From Saprospiraceae bacterium (GTDB taxonomy: Bacteria; Bacteroidota; Bacteroidia; Chitinophagales; Saprospiraceae), in contig JALSKB010000179.1 of the NCBI GenBank assembly GCA_026989035.1, forward strand, positions 1-44,968: 44,968 nt of DNA. The letters run 5' to 3'. Every line of letters begins with the position of its first letter. The stretch's first letter is position 1. Shown here in pieces: positions 29,842 through 39,048 of this stretch. The notes under the pieces are model-generated. The model saw only the letters and a program-made list of their open reading frames with translations, made no database searches and had not been told where the DNA came from. A program made the translations under genes and the position numbers.

Positions 29842-30720
29842 TCAATAGGACCAAAGGTCCTGTTCAAAGTTGAAGATGCTTTGCTTGATACGCTCCGACT
29901 CCAGCAAAAGGTCCACGCCGGAAAGATAATCTTTCAAACGACGATCATAAACGTTGGACTCTTTGTAAATATAACTGGAAAAATAGCGCATCTCCATGAT
30001 GTCTTCCCAAGAGGTTAGAGAAGCATCATTGCCTTCTATATAAGCTTTTTCTCTAGCAAGCACTTTGCGGGCATCGGGATAATACACCCAGAACATCACC
30101 TTCTCATAGAGGAAGTTTCCATTGTCATCGGTAACATCCTGAATAGGCGCAACACCCAAAATGCGCACCTGCAAGGTCGAAGTTTCTCTGTCGAAGAACC
30201 AATCTTCTTTTACGCGAAAGCGCTTGATGTCTTCCGGATTGATTTCGTTGCGAACGACTTGAATGATTTCTTCGTAAGTTTCAGGATCAAAGACAATGGT
30301 CGTATCCAGAAAACTCACCTGAGCAGCCACCTCATCGGCTGTGAGTGGATGAAGAAATTTGTCGTCCTCAGGGCTGTACACCGTAATGTCTTCATTGATG
30401 GCGGCGTCCAGTAAAATTTTAAAGAAAGGCCGATCGGGATAGATGAAGTGTTTGTTCATCTTTTCGCGTACATCAATCACACGCCAAATGCGTTTTTCCC
30501 AGAAAATGTCGATTTCGCGGATATCGTCATACGGCAAAACGCGGTGTTCAACGGTAAGTTTTTTTTCCACGATGCCATCCACGGGGAGATCCCCCTCATC
30601 CACCGGTTCACCGGATTCGGTCAGGGAGGCTTCGGGAGATTGAGCTGAGAGCAAGCCAGGGGCCATAAACAAACCCGCGAGCAGAGCACTTAGAAACAGA
30701 GTTTTGAGAGCCATCTTCAT
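29842..30720 (-). CDS. gldN: Type IX secretion/gliding protein GldN
   Basis: 292 residues from the ATG at 30718-30720 (MKMALKTLFLSALLAG); the longer frame upstream starts before the signal peptide. The signal ends near GLLSAQ. The mature protein matches the GldN/PorN pattern: DDIREIDIFWEKRIWRVIDV, then KMNKHFIYPDRPFF and FWVYYPDARKVLA. By family knowledge it is a periplasmic component that forms the ring with GldK and contacts GldM. It is the last gene of gldKLMN, separated from gldM by 227 nt containing two hairpins. Confidence 0.95.
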   Translation of the reverse strand: MKMALKTLFLSALLAGLFMAPGLLSAQSPEASLTESGEPVDEGDLPVDGIVEKKLTVEHRVLPYDDIREIDIFWEKRIWRVIDVREKMNKHFIYPDRPFFKILLDAAINEDITVYSPEDDKFLHPLTADEVAAQVSFLDTTIVFDPETYEEIIQVVRNEINPEDIKRFRVKEDWFFDRETSTLQVRILGVAPIQDVTDDNGNFLYEKVMFWVYYPDARKVLAREKAYIEGNDASLTSWEDIMEMRYFSSYIYKESNVYDRRLKDYLSGVDLLLESERIKQSIFNFEQDLWSY

Positions 30721-30808
30721 AATTAAATACTTTGCTTGTGTGTAGCTAAATGAAAGAGTAAAGCACTGTACAACTGCTACAATTGCTTTGCGCAAAAGCC
30801 GGCCGAAA

Positions 30809-30883
30809 AAACCGCCGGTTTCCTGCTTGAGAGCGCCACCGGATATAGAACGCTCAGCTGAAGTTTCTATTATCCGGTGGCAC
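30809..30883 (-). other. Tandem hairpins between gldM and gldN
   Basis: GCCACCGGATA (30835-30845) pairs with TATCCGGTGGC (30871-30881), extended by TAGAA/TTCTA after a bulge. Next on the minus strand comes AAACC-GGC-GGTTT followed by T residues (around 30823-30809), which resembles a weak terminator. Together they could reduce transcription into gldN or define an mRNA end. Confidence 0.6.
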
Positions 30884-30947
30884 TTCCCTGTTTTTTATGA
30901 GCAAGACAGACTTCAAAGGTTATCAAACCTCTGCAAGCCGCCTGTTC

Positions 30948-32510
30948 TTACTTGATGTTAAAGACCAAAGAGTTGATCTTACGGCCCGAAGAGTCACCAG
31001 GACAACGCGCCTTGACATCCATGAAGTAGAAGGTATCTCCGGGCTTCGCCTGGTTGATCAAGCGCTGGGCCTGAGACTTATAGCTACCACCTGAATTCAA
31101 AGCTTCCACAGCATCCTGGCGCTTGGGTACGCGCACCAGGCGGAAACCCTGAATTTGGCATTTGGCATCGAAGTCGAAGTTATCCAACCAGGCAATCAAG
31201 CCTTTTTGCGCTTTAAATGTACCTGCCGGCAAGGTGCCGTCAGACTTGTTACCCAGTCGTGCAATGGGGTCGGGTATGCGCTTTACGCGGAAACCCTTTT
31301 TGGCATTCATGCCTCCTCCGCTTACCTTGACAAAGCAGTTAGGCTCTTGGCCTCCGGGTTTGCTCACCGTTACCACGTACTGAGAACCACTGACTTTTTT
31401 GATCTTACCTCCGCCACCGCTGATGCTCACGCGCAACTCACTGGTCGGAATGCCAGCGGCAGAGATGGAAACGGGATTCTCAACACCGATGTAAAACACA
31501 TTCATCTTATCGGCAGAAACGGCCACCGAGCGCTCACCCACCTCGTATTCAAAGACTTTTTCGTACTCCTTCTCTTCCTTGGTCAGTGGGTTGGTAACTA
31601 CGATCTTTACGTTCAACTTCTTCGTGCCCAAGCCCGTTGCCTTGGTGGTGTAATGGGCTGTTCCCTCTTCCATGGGAATTAAATTCCCGTTGACATACAC
31701 CTTGGTGTTTTCAGAAGACTGAGAAGAATACGCCCCCAAAAAGACATCCGCTTCAAACTTTTCACCTCGGATGACATAAGACTTTTTAGCGGCCAAAACC
31801 GGCTGGAAGACGTCAAAAACGATGTCCTCTCCTTTGGCTTTTTTGAACAGGTAGTTCAACACAGCTGCCGCAGAAGTCTTGGCATCGCTTTGGATTTTAG
31901 AGAACATGGGGAAAACAGCCGCCACCGGCATTTGGCGAAACTTGAAATCCGCCCAACTGCTCTTTTTGTCATGACTCAAGGCCTTCCAGTCTTCAACATC
32001 CAACGAGATACTCTTGATCACTTCCGGATCTTTATCGACCAAGTCAATCAACTTCTGGCGGGTTTCTTTGATCTTGGCCTCCAGTTCAAAGCCCTTTCCA
32101 TCGTCCTCCGGTGTATTGGGGTCTCCCAGCACCAACAGACGGGTAGTAACATCTTTATCCTTTTTGCGCTTGGGCCATTCGGGATGGTCCGGATGAGGGC
32201 CACCTGCTGCCTCAAACAACTCATCACGCAGATTTTGTACGTAATCTACGAATTCCGAAGTAATGGCTTGTGCCTGCTTGGCCTTTTCGGCAAATTCCTT
32301 TTTATCAGGATAGGCTTCAGCTTGGTCTTCAATGGCATCCAGCACTCGGCTGTTGCTGACATCAACGATTTTTCCCGATTCTTGAATACCCTTATCCAGA
32401 GAGAAAAAGGCATTCATCACTTCGGCCGATACATTGAGGGCCAGCAGAGCCGTCAGCACCAGATACATCAAGTTAATCATCAACTGCCGCGGTTCCTTAG
32501 GTATTGACAT
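30948..32510 (-). CDS. gldM: Type IX secretion motor protein GldM
   Basis: 520 residues. A single N-terminal membrane helix (LMINLMYLVLTALLALNVSA, ~10-30) is preceded by the conserved SIPKEPRQ. A long helical region follows, then beta-rich periplasmic domains (for example YVIRGEKFEADVFLGAYSS and later IPTSELRVSISGGGGKI). By knowledge of the family, GldM dimers insert into the GldL pentamer and transmit torque or energy across the periplasm to GldK/GldN. It starts 53 nt after gldL. Confidence 0.95.
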   Translation of the reverse strand: MSIPKEPRQLMINLMYLVLTALLALNVSAEVMNAFFSLDKGIQESGKIVDVSNSRVLDAIEDQAEAYPDKKEFAEKAKQAQAITSEFVDYVQNLRDELFEAAGGPHPDHPEWPKRKKDKDVTTRLLVLGDPNTPEDDGKGFELEAKIKETRQKLIDLVDKDPEVIKSISLDVEDWKALSHDKKSSWADFKFRQMPVAAVFPMFSKIQSDAKTSAAAVLNYLFKKAKGEDIVFDVFQPVLAAKKSYVIRGEKFEADVFLGAYSSQSSENTKVYVNGNLIPMEEGTAHYTTKATGLGTKKLNVKIVVTNPLTKEEKEYEKVFEYEVGERSVAVSADKMNVFYIGVENPVSISAAGIPTSELRVSISGGGGKIKKVSGSQYVVTVSKPGGQEPNCFVKVSGGGMNAKKGFRVKRIPDPIARLGNKSDGTLPAGTFKAQKGLIAWLDNFDFDAKCQIQGFRLVRVPKRQDAVEALNSGGSYKSQAQRLINQAKPGDTFYFMDVKARCPGDSSGRKINSLVFNIK

Positions 32511-32563
32511 GGCAATGGATTTTTTTGGTTAACAAATGGTTGTTTTCAAGAGAAAGCAACCGT

Positions 32564-33154
32564 TTATCCACGACCTATGCTGGCCATTGCACTCAGCATG
32601 TTGCCATATACCGAATTCAAGGAACTGAGGTTTTGATTCAAACCTGCCAATTGTTCTTTGAAGGCTTTGGCATCTTCTACCGAATCGCTCAAATCGCCCA
32701 TGGCTTCATTCAACTTCGCATAGAAGTTGTTCATCGTCTGGATTTGCTGGCTGGTACCCGAAAAATCCACTTCCTGCAAAGCTTTCAAAGCCGAGAGGTT
32801 TTTGGATACATTCTGCAATTCGGAGAGCATGCCTCCCAGTTGTTTTTCAACCACTTCACCGTCCAGAGGTTTACCCATAGGTGCTGCGGTACCACCCACG
32901 GTCAGTGGCTGCATGGGAGCATCGTAATCGTCCAATCCGGGGAACAATTTTTCCCAATAATAATCTTTTTCAGGGCCTACCAAGCCCAAAAACAAGAAGA
33001 TAAAGGCCTCTGTACACAAGCCGATGGTCAGCATGAGACTAGCTCCGGGCAAGCTCTCCAGCTTAAAAAGAGCACCGAGCAAAACCACGGATGCGCCAAG
33101 ACCGATGATGAGGTTCTTGATGTACTTGAAGCTTTTCGAATGCAAAAAACTCAT
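32564..33154 (-). CDS. gldL: Type IX secretion motor protein GldL
   Basis: 196 residues. Two membrane helices (~12-30 and ~38-58) are followed by a cytoplasmic helical domain with a coiled-coil look (LQNVSKNLSALKALQEVDFS). Glu49 in TIGLCTEAFIF, inside the second helix, is at the position known in Flavobacterium GldL to be needed for proton-driven motor function, so the motor should be active. It is co-oriented with gldK and gldM. Confidence 0.95.
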   Translation of the reverse strand: MSFLHSKSFKYIKNLIIGLGASVVLLGALFKLESLPGASLMLTIGLCTEAFIFLFLGLVGPEKDYYWEKLFPGLDDYDAPMQPLTVGGTAAPMGKPLDGEVVEKQLGGMLSELQNVSKNLSALKALQEVDFSGTSQQIQTMNNFYAKLNEAMGDLSDSVEDAKAFKEQLAGLNQNLSSLNSVYGNMLSAMASIGRG

Positions 33155-33270
33155 TGTTGTGTTCGTTTTAGGTTAGTAAAGTTTGTTGCTTTTCCCGATC
33201 CCCTTTCCGGGAAATCCACTACCATAATGCCAAAGAGGCAAAAGGTAACAGCCAGGACGGGAAAAAGTCA

Positions 33271-33304
33271 AAAAGGAGGAGGAAATCGGTTTCCTCCTCC
33301 TTTT
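33271..33304 (-). terminator. Perfect 15-bp hairpin between gldK and gldL
   Basis: AAAAGGAGGAGGAAA pairs exactly with TTTCCTCCTCCTTTT around a 4-nt loop, 6 nt after the gldK stop. The right arm ends in four T residues, too few for a strong terminator; it may be a partial terminator or an mRNA processing/stability element within the operon. Confidence 0.65.
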
Positions 33305-33309
33305 CAGGT

Positions 33310-34551
33310 TTAGAAGTCATTGATGGAACGCCCAAGGAACGTCAGGGCACAGCGGAACCCGATATAAGACTTGGTGGTATCTTCAAACTCATAAGCGCGG
33401 CTGCTGGTTTGCAGGAAATAGCCCACATCTTTCCAGGAGCCTCCGCGGATGACTTTCAAGCGATAAGCATCGGGATCTTCTTCCTTGGTGTCGTAGCGAT
33501 AATCGGGGTTCATGTCGTGAATGAAGGAATAGGCATTGGAGTGGAAAGCCGTAACAGTCCATTCCGCCACATTACCGGACATGTTGTAAAGGCCATAATC
33601 GTTGGGGAAATAGGCATCTGCCTTAACCGTATAAAAACCACCGTCTTCGGGATAGTTGCCCCTGCCGGGTTTGAAGTTTGCCAACAGACAGCCCTTGGCA
33701 TTGCGCAGATAATAAGCACCCCAGGGATAAGGAGCATTTTCGTGTCCTCCACGCGCTGCATACTCCCATTCGTGCTCAAAAGGCAGGCGAAAATCTTCGG
33801 TATTGACGCCATTGGCCTCGTAGGCATTCCACAATTTTGTACGCCAATAGCAGAAAGCATTGGCCATATGCCAGTTGACGCCCACCACGGGATAGTCGTC
33901 AAAGGCCGGATGCCAGAAGTAATTGCGCGTCATCGGCTCATTGTACGAATAGGAGAAATCGCGTATCCAGCAGAGCGTGTCGGGATAGATGTTGATCTTT
34001 TTGCGCTTGATGAAAGACTGGCGATGCGATTTACCGCGGTCGTTGGCAGCCGCCTTCCAGTCGTACCACTCGTACTCATAAACCAATTTGCTGACATTCA
34101 ACTCTTTCTTGCCGGCAAAACGATCGCGCCCTTGGTAAAACAGATCTTCCAAGGTCTCATCTTCCCAATCTATTTCCTGTTCCCAGTCAATGAACTCATC
34201 ACCCGTAAGCTCATCTTCTACAAAGTGGTCCAGATATGCATGGGCCAGCGAATCGCGAACCCAATAGACAAACTGGCGATATTCGTTGTTGGTAATCTCC
34301 GTATCATCCATGTAAAAACCCGTAATGGAGATAGCTTTGGGCCGCTGATACATGGTGCGGGAGATGTCTTCATCTCCGGTACCAATGAACAAGGTGCCCG
34401 AGGGCACATAAACCATACCATAAGGGTTAATGCCTTTCCAGGCCGGACGATCCAAGACACCCGTAAGCTGGCCGGATTGGCGGGAGCCACAGGCTGCTAA
34501 AAAGGTTGTGAGAACCAATAGCGCGAAAACGGTTTTGAGCTGTAGTTTCAT
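33310..34551 (-). CDS. gldK: Type IX secretion/gliding lipoprotein GldK
   Basis: 413 residues from the ATG at 34549-34551 (MKLQLKTVFALLVL); the upstream ATG at 34573 would displace the signal. The signal ends LAAC, lipidated Cys21. The body is a formylglycine-generating-enzyme-like (FGE/sulfatase-modifying) fold: GMVYVPSGTLFIGTGD, then FYMDDTEITNNEYRQF, RLPFEHEWEYAARGG, NVAEWT and VIRGGSWKD. In GldK this fold is structural. By family knowledge it forms the outer-membrane-associated ring with GldN. First gene of the gldKLMN cluster. Confidence 0.95.
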   Translation of the reverse strand: MKLQLKTVFALLVLTTFLAACGSRQSGQLTGVLDRPAWKGINPYGMVYVPSGTLFIGTGDEDISRTMYQRPKAISITGFYMDDTEITNNEYRQFVYWVRDSLAHAYLDHFVEDELTGDEFIDWEQEIDWEDETLEDLFYQGRDRFAGKKELNVSKLVYEYEWYDWKAAANDRGKSHRQSFIKRKKINIYPDTLCWIRDFSYSYNEPMTRNYFWHPAFDDYPVVGVNWHMANAFCYWRTKLWNAYEANGVNTEDFRLPFEHEWEYAARGGHENAPYPWGAYYLRNAKGCLLANFKPGRGNYPEDGGFYTVKADAYFPNDYGLYNMSGNVAEWTVTAFHSNAYSFIHDMNPDYRYDTKEEDPDAYRLKVIRGGSWKDVGYFLQTSSRAYEFEDTTKSYIGFRCALTFLGRSINDF

Positions 34552-34879
34552 GTTTACACCCGAGTTTTCCTTCAATGAATAAAAAGTGACCGTAAAAGTA
34601 GATAAAAATCCGATACGGTCAAAGGTTAGTACGTGTTAATCTTCACTTTTTGCCGTTTAGGCGGCAAAAATAAGCAAAATTCAGCCGACATGGGAAGCAG
34701 AGCTTCTTTTTTGAGGTTGCGAAAAAACTTTCCGGCACCTCTTTTCTTTCCTACTCATGCTCATGTTTATAGCCGAGCTTGCTTTATTTTACGAGCGCCC
34801 AAAGTTAGAATTTTTCCTGCAATTGGAAAATTTGGGCGCTTTTTTCTACAAATTAGCCGGCGTATGTTCTCCAATTCGT
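34552..34879. other. 328-nt spacer between gldK and the PorP/SprF gene
   Basis: Contains the predicted gldK promoter (34593-34622) and a palindrome TTTTTGCCG/CGGCAAAAA (34647-34670). The palindrome has A-runs rather than T-runs after the stem on either strand, so it is not a terminator. The rest shows no gene. Confidence 0.6.
34593..34622 (-). promoter_or_regulatory. Possible promoter of gldKLMN
   Basis: On the minus strand TTG (34622-34620), 19 nt, then TACTTTTA (34600-34593), one mismatch from TAnnTTTG; ~40 nt before the gldK ATG. Confidence 0.45.
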
Positions 34880-35869
34880 TCAAAAACGGGGGCTATAAAT
34901 AACAGGAGGCAATTTGCCCTTGCCCGGCACTTTGCCCAAAGCATACTGTATCCACAATTCATGAGAGCCGTCGGAAACCCTCCTCAAACCGGAAACTGTC
35001 CAGTCGTAAGCATACATCAAACGCCACTTTTCATTGAGTTGATACCCCAGGGAAAAAATCAAAGCATCCAAGCTGCGGCTGTCGTATCCTCTTAACGCCA
35101 GGCCTGCCGAAATATTGCCGTTCCAGGTCCAAAGGGAAGATAGATCCGTTTGCCAGCTCACCAGATCGGTTTTTACCAGCAAAGCGGGTTCCCACAGCAA
35201 GAAGCGCCCCCACTCCATTCTATAAGCTCCGTAAAAGAAAAGATGAACCGTCGGATCGTGTACCACCGGGTTCTGTTTGGCGAAAGCCGACAAAGCAAAA
35301 CGCTCTATGGAAAGACCTAAAGCCCCTCGTTCAGATAACCAAAAAGCTCCAAGCCCGGCCGTAAGCCAGGCCGCTTGCCAAGGCTGTGCCTGGAGCCTGT
35401 CATCCCGATGGTCTATGGTTCCTCCCTCGTAAACCCCATCCGGCGTACGCAAAAACTGACCTGGCAGACGCTGCTGCTCATAACCCAAGCGAGCACCCAA
35501 AGACCACTTGCCTCCCGCTAAAATGCCTTGGAAGTTGTAAGCTAAACCGGCTGTTAACCACTCTTCTGCGCCCAAGACCTCCCTGCTCAACTGCAAGCCC
35601 ACGCCTCCTCTGGTCAGATATACAGGCATCTGTAGCGAAACAAAACCCGATTGTGGCTTGCCGGGCAATGGCCCCAACCATTGACTGCGCCAACGGGCAT
35701 CCAACAACAAATCTTCTTCCAAGCCGGCATAAGCAGCATTGAACAAAAGGGGGTTGAGCGAAAACAGGCTGTACTGAGGCAACTGCTGGGCCGGCAAAAC
35801 AGCTGCAAAAACCAACAACAAACCTGTAAGCCACGCCCAACGAAAAAAAGTGAAGTCAAACTGCTTCAT
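34880..35869 (-). CDS. PorP/SprF-family type IX secretion outer-membrane protein
   Basis: 329 residues. The signal peptide ends near VLPAQQ, directly followed by the family signature LPQYSLFSLNPLLFNAAYAG. The remainder is a 14-strand-type barrel, with GKPQSGFVSLQMPV and later AGLALRGYDSRSLDALIFSLGY, ending SPRF. In this family, members associate with a T9SS substrate or with the GldKN ring. Its position upstream of gldK on the same strand matches the common porP-gldKLMN order. It carries one iterated 13-mer (35276). Confidence 0.92.
   Translation of the reverse strand: MKQFDFTFFRWAWLTGLLLVFAAVLPAQQLPQYSLFSLNPLLFNAAYAGLEEDLLLDARWRSQWLGPLPGKPQSGFVSLQMPVYLTRGGVGLQLSREVLGAEEWLTAGLAYNFQGILAGGKWSLGARLGYEQQRLPGQFLRTPDGVYEGGTIDHRDDRLQAQPWQAAWLTAGLGAFWLSERGALGLSIERFALSAFAKQNPVVHDPTVHLFFYGAYRMEWGRFLLWEPALLVKTDLVSWQTDLSSLWTWNGNISAGLALRGYDSRSLDALIFSLGYQLNEKWRLMYAYDWTVSGLRRVSDGSHELWIQYALGKVPGKGKLPPVIYSPRF
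35276..35288 (+). repeat. Iterated 13-mer, copy 8
   Basis: Exact, antisense within the PorP/SprF gene, which reads it as AFAKQ. Confidence 0.8.
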
Positions 35870-36356
35870 ACAGAGCTTTTAGTTAAGACGATAGAAAAGA
35901 GGGTTTAGTATGCTTTCAAAAGACTTAAAATAATTCAGCCTCCAATGACTAAAACGGCAAAAAGCCAAACCGCTTTCATCAAGCCGGCCACAGCTTGTAA
36001 AAAGTAAAATTACCAAATTTATGAGACTACTTCTCCCAAAAAAAACTAACTTTATCTTGCTCTCTCTTTGGCTGAAATGATCAAGCCCTCTAAGTAGGTT
36101 TGCAGAATTTGGATATGCACCCAAAGTAAAAAGTTTGGAACGCTAACAAATACCAAACCCTTTTCGTCCTAATCATATAAACATCTACATCACTATTTAA
36201 CACGCTTGCTAAAAAACGAAACACCCCCCGGTGCTAAAACTAAAAAGCTTAAAAGGCGTTTCCCGAAAAGCCTAATGTCATACATTAAAAAGAGTAGGGG
36301 GCGGTATCCGAAAAGCCAGACAGAGTAGGAGTTTTAGCAACAAAAATCAGTAAACC
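35870..36356. other. 487-nt divergent intergenic region before the TM2 gene
   Basis: Holds the upstream regions of the PorP/SprF gene (minus) and the TM2 gene (plus). The only structure seen is the candidate RNA at 36233-36338. The first ~300 nt look unremarkable and A/T-rich, with no ORF that resembles protein. Confidence 0.6.
36233..36338 (+). ncRNA. Candidate structured leader RNA upstream of the TM2 gene
   Basis: A 9-bp closing helix (GCTAAAACT 36233-36241, AGTTTTAGC 36330-36338) encloses ~88 nt. The inside contains two related units: GGCGTTTCCCGAAAAGCC and GGCGGTATCCGAAAAGCC share CCGAAAAGCC. Each is followed by an AGAGTAGG word (before 36300 and before 36330), and a small hairpin AATGT/ACATT lies between them. 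It ends 18 nt before the ATG, where a cis-regulatory RNA would act. No known riboswitch class was recognised. Confidence 0.5.
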
Positions 36357-36830
36357 ATGGTAAAAAAACATTATGCCATTCTTTTTGCCTTATCATTCCT
36401 TTTCGCTTCTCCGGCTTTCGCCGTTACCGGCAACTCAGCGTCACAGCAACACGCTTGGCAGAAAGTCGTGAAAAAAACTTATGGGGCCAGTTCCGTAGAA
36501 GACTTTCTGAACCTGACGCCACAAAGCATTGAAAAACGCAGTGGAGAAAAATTGGACAAACAAGCCGTCAAACAACTGAAAAAAGACCGGAAAAAAGTAA
36601 AAAAAGCAAGAGCCGGCAACCAAAAGAAGAGCCAAATTGCAGCCCTGCTGCTCTGCTTTTTTGTGGGGGTTCTGGGAATACACCGCTTCTATCTGGGTTA
36701 CACAGTCATTGGTATCATACAGCTTTTGACCTTGGGGGGACTTGGCATTTGGGCGCTTATCGATTTCATACGGATCATTACCGGCGACTTAAAGCCTGCC
36801 GACGGCAGCAATTATGACCCCTCTTTCTAA
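36357..36830 (+). CDS. TM2-domain membrane protein
   Basis: 157 residues. A signal peptide (SFLFASPAFA) is followed by a charged stretch with SASQQHAWQKVVKKTYG and a lysine-rich linker (~75-97). The C-terminal TM2 domain has two helices joined by a short turn: LLCFFVGVLGIHRFYLGYT and IGIIQLLTLGGLGIWALIDF, with the typical G-x-HRFY-LG and W-x-x-IDF residues. Function of bacterial TM2 proteins is largely unknown. The long leader with a candidate structured RNA suggests mRNA-level control. Confidence 0.88.
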   Translation: MVKKHYAILFALSFLFASPAFAVTGNSASQQHAWQKVVKKTYGASSVEDFLNLTPQSIEKRSGEKLDKQAVKQLKKDRKKVKKARAGNQKKSQIAALLLCFFVGVLGIHRFYLGYTVIGIIQLLTLGGLGIWALIDFIRIITGDLKPADGSNYDPSF

Positions 36831-36840
36831 TTTCCCACAC

Positions 36841-36909
36841 TCAAACCAAAACGGTTTGAAGCAACAAGCCTAAAGTTGAGAAGTCGGGATAGCAGCTGCT
36901 ATCCCGACT
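36841..36909. terminator. Two hairpins after the TM2 gene
   Basis: TCAAACC/GGTTTGA (36841-36857) resembles hairpin 1 of the 105-bp element. It is followed by a perfect 28-bp palindrome at 36882-36909 (arms AGTCGGGATAGCAG and CTGCTATCCCGACT, no loop). Probably a transcript end; no T-run longer than three follows. The rest of the gap to 37113 shows nothing else. Confidence 0.5.
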
Positions 36910-37113
36910 CTGTTTGCATTGGAATGTGAAACCGTCTTCTATGCTGTTTGTCAGCTCCACCACGCTATTTTAGGTTCTTCCATTTGTTCTTATACTTAAC
37001 GCCTGCTATAAATCACTTAGCCCATTGACATTGCTCATTGCCGCGCTGTCGAAAAAAGAAGTCCTTTTTCTTCAATCCGGCAAAACCGGAACACACAAAA
37101 TAAGAGCGCGTTT

Positions 37114-39048
37114 ATGGGCAGTCAAAAAGTTTCTCTGGTTACCGACGTGACCACCAGACAGCAATGCATGGAGTATTTGCTCAAAGATTTGCGTGCCCTG
37201 GAGCTGATGATGGAGCAAGATCTTTTTGACCGCGGCACTCGCCGCATGGGCGCCGAGCAGGAATTCTGCTTTGTAGATGAGCATTGGCGGCCGGCACCGG
37301 TGCTGATGAAGGTCTTGGAACAAATAGATGATCCCCATTTCACTACCGAGTTGGCGGTTTTCAACATGGAGGTCAATTTGGATCCTCAAGAGCTTAAAGG
37401 GAGCTGCCTCAGCGAATTAGAGCAACAACTGCAAACGTATTTGGCGAAAGCCGATGCCATCTCCTCCAAGAAAAAAGCGCATCCTATCTTAGTGGGCATC
37501 CTGCCCTCCATCAGACGCTCTGACATTGGCCTGCAAAACCTCACCCCTTTGGAGCGTTATGCAGCTTTAATGGATGTGCTACGTCAAATACGAGGAAGTC
37601 ATTTCGAGTTTTGGATTGAAGGCACCGATCAGCTCATCACCAAAGCCGAAAGCTCCATGTTTGAAAGTTGTAACACCAGTTTTCAACTGCACTTTCAAGT
37701 CTGGCCCGAGGAATTTGCCGAGGCCTACAATTGGTCTCAGTTGGTTACGGGCCCTCTCTTGGCTGCAGCTACCAACTCGCCCATGCTTTTGGGAAAGCGC
37801 CTGTGGCGCGAAACGCGCATAGCGCTATTCCAGCAGGCTGTGGATACCCGCAACACGGCAGAGCTTTCCCGCCAACGCAGCCAACGGGTCTCGTTTGGCA
37901 ACCGGTGGGTGCGCCGATCGGTCCTGGAGCTCTATCGCGAAGAAGTGAGCATGCACAAACTGTTGCTGCGGCCCAAAAAAATGGAAGACGCCTTAAAAAC
38001 TTTAGAGAAAGGGCGCATCCCGCCGCTGTATTCCCTCAGCATACACAGCGGCACCATCTACCGCTGGAACAGAGCCTGCTATGGCATCAGCGAAAACGGA
38101 AAACCGCACCTGCGTATAGAAAACCGCGTCTTGCCGGCCGGCCCCTCTACCCTTGATGAGGTGGCCAATGCCGCCTTCTGGCTGGGCCTTATGCTCAACA
38201 GACCACCCGAATACGAACGCCTGTGGGAACGCCTCGATTTCGATCTCGCCAAAGGCAATTTCCTGCGGGCAGCTCGCCAAGGCCTGGGCGTGTATTTCTC
38301 CTGGCCGGGTTTGAGTAAAAAAATCGCCGCCCCCGAACTCATCCTCAAAGAGCTGCTGCCCATTGCCCGCGAAGGCCTCAACCAAGCCGGCATAAATCGA
38401 GAAGAGGTAGAACACTACCTCGGCATCCTGGAAGCCCGGGTCAAATCGGGCCGAACCGGCTCGCAGTGGATTCTGGATTCCTTCAACAGCTTAAAAAAAC
38501 AAAGCAGCCCCGAAGAAGCCATCGTAGCCACCACCGCCGCCCTGTGGAAGCGCCAGCAAACGGCAAAACCCGTTCACGAATGGGAAACGGCCAAGCTCAC
38601 CGAAGCCGGCAATTGGATGAATCGCTTCGGGTGCATACAACAAATCATGAGTACAGACCTGCTCACCGTCAATGAGCACGACCTCATCGATTTTCTGGCT
38701 CATTTAATGACCTGGCGCAACATCCGCCACCTGCCGGTAGAAAACGAGGCCGGTGAACTGGTGGGTCTGATCACCTCCAAACAACTGGTCGAACACTACA
38801 GCCAAAACTGCAACCGCCCGAACATCCGCTCAGCCAAAGACATCATGATTCGAAAATTTATTGCCGTAAATCCCGAAACGCCGACCGCCGAAGCTGTTGC
38901 CCTGATGCGGCAACACCACATCAGTTGCCTGCCCGTTATCCGTGAAAAAAAACTGCTCGGCATCGTTACCGAATCGGACTTCGTCAACATGGCAGCTCAA
39001 GTACTCCAAGAAGTATCCGACAAAAACTACCGAGAATCATCCGAGTAA
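37114..39048 (+). CDS. Glutamate-cysteine-ligase-family (GCS2) enzyme fused to a CBS pair
   Basis: 644 residues. Residues ~30-400 are a GCS2-type carboxylate-amine ligase: RRMGAEQEFCFVDE supplies the metal-binding glutamates, FNMEVNLDPQ, FWIEGTDQLI, and a C-terminal HLRIENRVLPAGP. The last ~140 residues are two CBS motifs (IMSTDLLTVNEHDLIDFLAH and IMIRKFIAVNPETPTAEAVA), which in other proteins bind adenine nucleotides. By family it may join glutamate to an amine or thiol (gamma-glutamyl compound) under adenylate control; the substrate is unknown. The gene stands before an O-methyltransferase 35 nt away. Confidence 0.85.
   Translation: MGSQKVSLVTDVTTRQQCMEYLLKDLRALELMMEQDLFDRGTRRMGAEQEFCFVDEHWRPAPVLMKVLEQIDDPHFTTELAVFNMEVNLDPQELKGSCLSELEQQLQTYLAKADAISSKKKAHPILVGILPSIRRSDIGLQNLTPLERYAALMDVLRQIRGSHFEFWIEGTDQLITKAESSMFESCNTSFQLHFQVWPEEFAEAYNWSQLVTGPLLAAATNSPMLLGKRLWRETRIALFQQAVDTRNTAELSRQRSQRVSFGNRWVRRSVLELYREEVSMHKLLLRPKKMEDALKTLEKGRIPPLYSLSIHSGTIYRWNRACYGISENGKPHLRIENRVLPAGPSTLDEVANAAFWLGLMLNRPPEYERLWERLDFDLAKGNFLRAARQGLGVYFSWPGLSKKIAAPELILKELLPIAREGLNQAGINREEVEHYLGILEARVKSGRTGSQWILDSFNSLKKQSSPEEAIVATTAALWKRQQTAKPVHEWETAKLTEAGNWMNRFGCIQQIMSTDLLTVNEHDLIDFLAHLMTWRNIRHLPVENEAGELVGLITSKQLVEHYSQNCNRPNIRSAKDIMIRKFIAVNPETPTAEAVALMRQHHISCLPVIREKKLLGIVTESDFVNMAAQVLQEVSDKNYRESSE
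37440..37452 (+). repeat. Iterated 13-mer, copy 9
   Basis: Exact and sense in the GCS2-CBS gene, encoding YLAKAD. Confidence 0.8.

Follow-up and report, generated by a model that had tools for sequence, protein, structure and literature searches.

Two related RNA units stand in direct tandem in the 5' leader of a TM2 gene in the window, the 44,968-nucleotide stretch of Saprospiraceae bacterium DNA (contig JALSKB010000179.1) that was analysed here, and each of them is an H-type pseudoknot composed of two helices, P1 (GGC/GCC) and P2. The fold was assigned because P2 and P1 covary in sets of sequences that had each been selected without the helix in question. The best explanation is that the tandem DUF805b-type pseudoknots form a leader that acts in cis on the TM2 mRNA and controls translation initiation by way of a common effector (probability roughly 0.6). 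The whole element extends from 36233 to 36338, and the ATG of the TM2 gene at 36357 follows 18 nt after 36338. The parts of the leader were:

36232-36241, plus strand: closing helix, 5' arm (partner strand 36330-36339)
36254-36299, plus strand: unit 1, DUF805b-type H-type pseudoknot (RF02914 match; compensatory changes in the tandem alignment)
36254-36257, plus strand: unit 1 P1 5' strand AGGC, pairs with GCCU at 36270-36273 (sequence, P1 covariation)
36262-36264, plus strand: unit 1 P2 5' strand CCC, pseudoknot with GGG at 36297-36299 (P2 covariation)
36265-36269, plus strand: unit 1 GAAAA, conserved in the RF02914 consensus
36274-36286, plus strand: small hairpin AAUGU-CAU-ACAUU, inserted in unit 1 within its variable connector (sequence)
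36291-36299, plus strand: unit 1 AGAGUA and P2 3' strand GGG (sequence, covariation)
36300-36330, plus strand: unit 2, DUF805b-type H-type pseudoknot, abutting unit 1 with no spacer (RF02914 match)
36300-36302, plus strand: unit 2 P1 5' strand GGC, pairs with GCC at 36315-36317 (covariation)
36307-36309, plus strand: unit 2 P2 5' strand UCC, pseudoknot with GGA at 36328-36330 (covariation)
36310-36314, plus strand: unit 2 GAAAA, conserved in the RF02914 consensus and in the family units
36322-36330, plus strand: unit 2 AGAGUA and P2 3' strand GGA (RF02914 match, covariation)
36330-36339, plus strand: 3' arm of the closing helix
36331-36356, plus strand: linker of 26 nt from the pseudoknot to the start codon
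36357-36830, plus strand: TM2 gene, 157 aa, with a signal-peptide-like N-terminus and a C-terminal TM2 domain (Pfam, translation)

The words common to the two units were GGCG (36255-36258 in unit 1 and 36300-36303 in unit 2), CCGAAAAGCC (36263-36272 and 36308-36317) and AGAGTAGG (36291-36298 and 36322-36329). A preliminary description, made from the letters alone, had listed the closing helix, the two units, the small hairpin and the 18-nt gap, all of which are present, and had read them as a riboswitch-like RNA with partly single-stranded words. The structured element of two related units in the TM2 5' leader stands, but the words are not single-stranded, since P2 covariation identifies them as paired pseudoknot helices. 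The minimum free energy of the whole stretch was ordinary (z = -0.87), as expected because part of the pairing is a pseudoknot and thus invisible to the folding program.

Relation to the Rfam families DUF805b and DUF805

The Rfam search proposed in the preliminary description gave no match in the window at the gathering thresholds, but a permissive scan placed DUF805b RNA (RF02914) at 36298-36331 (31.3 bits, E = 3.4e-7). When the genome was searched with RF02914, both units were recovered, unit 2 at 36298-36331 (31.3 bits, E = 7.5e-7) and unit 1 at 36253-36300 (26.5 bits, E = 3.1e-5), while the third-best match in the genome reached only E = 0.21. Both scores are below the gathering cut-off of 35.6 bits, and the window units are a DUF805b-type homologue or variant, not thresholded members of RF02914. 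The other permissive matches (SpF44, mir-541, snoZ105 and others) were far under their cut-offs and were taken as chance.

RF02914 is annotated as Cis-reg and belongs to clan CL00115. DUF805b is a known kind of RNA whose function was not found in the literature searched, and a literature search found no paper discussing DUF805 RNA. The DUF805 and DUF805b motifs were reportedly first described in a 2017 paper, and the P2 pseudoknot may already have been drawn in that first description. The statement that no known riboswitch was recognised had therefore overlooked an already described RNA class that both units match, while the guess that the element belongs with orphan RNA motifs before small membrane proteins in Bacteroidota was borne out by the DUF805b class, which can precede TM2 and DUF805 genes. 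Among 41 relatives, 26 carried DUF805b at E <= 0.01 (15 exceeding the cut-off), with at most 12 copies per genome; in a wider set of 396 genomes of the phylum, 94 had it at E <= 1e-6.

The window units share with DUF805b the P1 hairpin, the CCGAAAA loop end, the GCC 3' strand of P1, the AGAGUAGG tail (at 36291-36298 and 36322-36329 in the window) and the cis position before a start codon in Bacteroidota. They differ in their sub-gathering scores and in forming two full units in tandem without a spacer. Moreover, the RF02914 consensus structure consists of P1 only, a single 4-bp hairpin, whereas P2 covariation was found in the present analysis.

DUF805 (RF03081), which is also in clan CL00115, has a two-hairpin architecture, the second half of which is DUF805b-like. 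In most of 32 DUF805 sequences, which were obtained by a P1-anchored search, read by eye and include a few chance stems or plain DUF805b copies, a dinucleotide in the loop of the first hairpin was complementary to the two bases directly before the second hairpin. CC/GG was the common loop/partner pair; L095 and L190 had CU/AG, L186 and L197 had UC/GA, and there were some wobbles and at least two mismatches (a third copy in L176, and L140). The first hairpin of DUF805 is of the type GUGG-AGNCCAGAAA-CCAC and its unit lacks the GAAAA/AGAGUA module, having AGAAA and AAAAC instead, whereas unit 1 of the window is DUF805b-like. Judged by these likenesses in sequence, RF03081 looks like the same spacer-free tandem whose first unit is degenerate; the window looks like a version of the DUF805-type tandem in which both units are complete. 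A search of this genome with RF03081 itself (gathering score 51.1 bits) found nothing at E <= 0.01. As far as could be checked, what is new relative to the Rfam models is 1) the double DUF805b without a spacer before TM2, 2) the covariation of P2 and 3) the reading of DUF805 as a tandem. In the second units of RF03081 (L091-L100, L175-L204), the base before CC and the base after GG are often both A; this lack of pairing at the outer position of P2 seems to be conserved in RF03081, unlike in DUF805b.

Covariation of the pseudoknot helices and conservation of the tandem

Each unit runs in the order P1, a 4-nt loop, P2, GAAAA, P1', a variable connector, AGAGUA and P2', and in P2 the three bases 5' of GAAAA pair with the three bases 3' of AGAGUA. 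The connector differed in length from relative to relative and has room for inserts, one example being the hairpin at 36274-36286 in the window. A set of 186 units was picked by P1, GAA[A/C]A and a GAGTA-like tail, with P2 left unused. Family units are not independent, there being many per genome or genus, and counts are read as consistency across sequences, not as separate events: in the 186 units the inner, middle and outer pairs of P2 were formed in 173, 176 and 158, respectively. The P2 cells were paired in 91% of cases, compared with 14-47% when the partner was slid by 1-3 bases, and the 158 paired outer positions compare with a maximum of 93 of 186 in 1000 shuffles. Compensatory changes were found at the inner and outer pairs. 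At the inner pair C-G was exchanged for U-A (15) and for G-C (2), with the matching tails GUAAGG and GUACGG. The outer pair, formed by the base before CC and the base after GG of the AGAGUAGG tail, was G-C in 67, U-A in 31, C-G in 12, A-U in 12 and G-U in 5 of 141 units. In a set of 177 units picked without P1, the three P1 positions were paired in 171, 170 and 139.

The GAAAA and AGAGUA strands beside P2 probably form a non-canonical extension of the loop-E or bulged-G kind, to judge by their letters; we take GAA and AGUA, the conserved stretches adjoining P2, to have the sequence of a loop-E/bulged-G module. The genome's own 5S rRNA (L291 1501-1615, minus strand) has GCCGA and AGAGUAGG at loop E, and the likeness of loop E and its flanking helix to the motif consists in GCCGA lying opposite AGAGUAGG. 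However, 5S rRNA carries GAUGGUA in place of the GAAAA of the motif and is without the pseudoknot topology. The likeness is one of a module, not of a family, and is treated as a lead only.

In the window the P2 3' strand of unit 1 (36297-36299) runs straight into P1 of unit 2 (36300-36302). The same no-spacer tandem was found before TM2 genes in seven other genomes, mostly Saprospiraceae (loci G024 (L098/L106), L211, L212, L214, L215, L218 and L226), and a ninth genome, G013 (L038), had it before two non-TM2 genes. In the alignment of eight tandems, 97.9% of the cells of the four helices were paired, compared with 80.8% for shuffled and 17-58% for slid versions, a comparison that somewhat favours the structure over the slid versions because the structure was drawn partly from the same eight sequences. 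Seven of the 12 pairs were altered on both sides, every helix had at least one compensatory pair, and the covariation score was 0.524 versus 0.150, with 0 of 500 shuffles as high. The preliminary description had staked its reading on conservation before TM2 orthologues and on covariation, and both were found. Single units also precede some other TM2 genes, while the motif was absent from the TM2 orthologues in G004, G005, G025 and G033, so the association with TM2 is not obligatory.

Pattern matches upstream of TM2 in L105 and L276 had no proper tail or P2 and were discarded. The exact tandem pattern had six matches in 396 genomes, including the window; the other five were not tandem-like and were taken as chance, the matches of a reversed-pattern control outnumbering them, and the exact pattern misses the U-A and G-C variants of P2 and undercounts tandems.

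Position before start codons and downstream genes

The distance from the unit end to the ATG had a median of 22 nt, with 152 of 175 units within 10-32 nt compared with 102 of 461 random positions. The linker was A-rich (52% A in the first 18 nt in relatives). In the window the GG of unit 2 is 27 nt from the TM2 ATG, and in relatives the distance is mostly 14-31 nt. In Flavobacterium, ribosome profiling showed a window of low structure around starts from -20 to +20 (PMC6847099), and since the units end about 22 nt before the ATG, the RNA sits just outside the start window. Shine-Dalgarno sequences are not recognised by Bacteroidia ribosomes (PMC9976891). A scan upstream of the units revealed no promoter box at a constant spacing. 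The end of an upstream same-strand open reading frame lay within 120 nt of the unit in 32 of 120 cases, about a quarter. Both observations are in keeping with an element that works as RNA.

The 157-aa protein encoded downstream in the window has a TM2 domain (PF05154, E = 2e-20) by Pfam search, and both the relatives and the named TM2 loci indicate Saprospiraceae (Bacteroidota). A set of 110 downstream proteins was very diverse and included bacteriocin-like leader peptides (7), DUF6520 (5), type IX secretion system (T9SS) sorting domains (4), TRL (3), TM2 (3), PixA (2), rhodopsins (2), DUF805 (2), DUF2589 (2), proteases and others. A signal-like N-terminal stretch was found by a crude rule in 78 of 132 downstream proteins (about 60%).

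Arrays of short GG-leader-type peptide genes, with a DUF805b copy each, were seen at L023/L054 (G035:C501), L051 (G024:C260) and L055 (G003:C23), and DUF805b may serve as a marker for discovering such peptide genes. At L052 (G018:C33), several DUF805b copies were preceded by a near-identical hairpin-plus-T-run sequence, so the leader and the upstream terminator were seemingly duplicated together.

Possible mode of action and genomic setting

From the fold, which covariation establishes, the tandem and the position, we infer a leader whose units stack, whose core is recognised and which acts on initiation. Each unit would be a hairpin stem, P1, of 3-4 bp crossed by the 3-bp P2, which joins the loop to the 3' tail. 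With P2 of unit 1 directly adjoining unit 2 at its P1, the units could stack into one rod, and the rod, placed just upstream of the start-region window of the ribosome, would act on translation initiation. A common cellular effector, either a protein or a small molecule, would recognise the conserved module and switch or tune initiation, and the doubling of the unit would make this recognition tighter or cooperative.

The preliminary description had centred on a nested structure, in which a 9-bp closing helix surrounds two hairpins with single-stranded recognition words. The helix joins 36233-36241 to 36330-36338 (9 bp, or 10 bp including U36232-A36339) and exceeds chance, a helix of at least 9 bp around a random 76-nt core having occurred at 6 of 5000 random window positions, yet it lies outside the conserved element. 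In five other tandems the corresponding helix was only 3-6 bp, which is background level. Moreover, the ninth pair of the closing helix needs A36330, a base that P2 of unit 2 also uses, and the two compete for it. With a helix that is not conserved and words that covary as paired strands, the nested structure is largely refuted and very unlikely; the closing helix may be a local addition and is known, as far as seen, from this genome alone. Still harder to credit is a DNA-level repeat, recombination site or transcription terminator. Some genomes do hold clusters of copies, with a small gene after every copy, but the copies keep one strand orientation and a fixed distance to the start codon, and the covariation, which is of the RNA type and includes U-G pairs, refutes this explanation in practice. 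An intrinsic terminator fails for want of a G+C-rich hairpin with a U-tract, the sequence after the element being AGUUUUAGCAACAAAA, in agreement with the preliminary view that the element is not a terminator.

Little separates a protein effector, a small-molecule ligand and a constitutive enhancer. Each pseudoknot could be the aptamer of an orphan riboswitch, two of them in tandem, with a ligand that stabilises the fold and lowers or raises TM2 translation. This is a tentative possibility, consistent with the compact H-type pseudoknot with its invariant, partly non-canonical core and with the conserved tandem arrangement, as in some riboswitches. The preQ1-I riboswitch is likewise a very small H-type pseudoknot, similar in size to the unit, in a 5' leader (PMC11625349), but it has another conserved core and its pseudoknot contains the Shine-Dalgarno sequence, whereas the window unit is about 22 nt before the start codon; no preQ1 family had an Rfam match in the window, and the downstream gene is TM2, with no queuosine genes. 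Against a riboswitch, the downstream genes (bacteriocin-like peptides, rhodopsins, lipoproteins, T9SS cargo, PixA, DUF805 and TM2) have no common pathway and suggest no single metabolite, the unit lies outside the ribosome-blocking region, and Shine-Dalgarno sequestration is not expected in Bacteroidota. The diverse gene set would suit a global regulator, and it is an equally tentative possibility that a regulatory or ribosomal protein recognising loop-E-like RNA binds each unit and controls the translation of a broad regulon. The GAA and AGUA strands conserved beside P2, and the occurrence of AGAGUAGG and GCCGA in loop E of the genome's own 5S rRNA, point in this direction; however, words as short as these could reflect a widespread structural module that arose independently, and no regulator was identified. 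Diverse downstream genes also fit a constitutive element, and this counts against the preferred explanation of a leader acting through a common effector, as do the TM2 orthologues that lack the motif and the sub-gathering scores of both units. A constitutive element would protect the 5' region of the mRNA or act as a ribosome standby site or enhancer for highly expressed exported proteins and peptides, a doubtful alternative that agrees with the fixed distance just outside the -20 to +20 window (PMC6847099), the A-rich linker and the very diverse, mostly exported products. On the other hand, the strongly conserved non-helical core (GAAAA/AGAGUA) exceeds what a protective hairpin needs, and classical high-abundance genes would also be expected, but the families to which the 110 proteins matched included none.

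A broader and quite improbable extension is that DUF805 and DUF805b belong to a single class, with one or two pseudoknots per element, that mimics the 5S loop-E face and is read by a ribosome-associated protein. If true, Bacteroidota, whose ribosomes work without Shine-Dalgarno pairing, would be able to control, through leader RNAs, a broad regulon that encodes exported proteins and peptides. The DUF805/DUF805b class could show how translation is controlled by leader RNAs in Bacteroidota without Shine-Dalgarno pairing. For these orphan regulatory RNAs, the testable fold and the target list are handles in the search for an effector, and the unifying view regards DUF805b as the single and DUF805 as the tandem form of a pseudoknot placed just outside the ribosome start window.

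A near-perfect palindrome, AGTCGGGATAGCAGCTGCTATCCCGACT, lies at 36880-36915, a short distance 3' of the TM2 stop codon. Its folding energy was -26 kcal/mol (z = -5.6), and it is probably a terminator or stop hairpin, which suggests that the TM2 gene is transcribed alone. On the minus strand, 29842-35869 contains a core type IX secretion/gliding cluster with GldN, GldM, GldK and a PorP/SprF-family gene, the last of which is directly divergent from the TM2 leader. Further downstream, 37114-39048 encodes a 644-aa protein with C-terminal CBS domains and a sub-threshold match to glutamate-cysteine-ligase-2.
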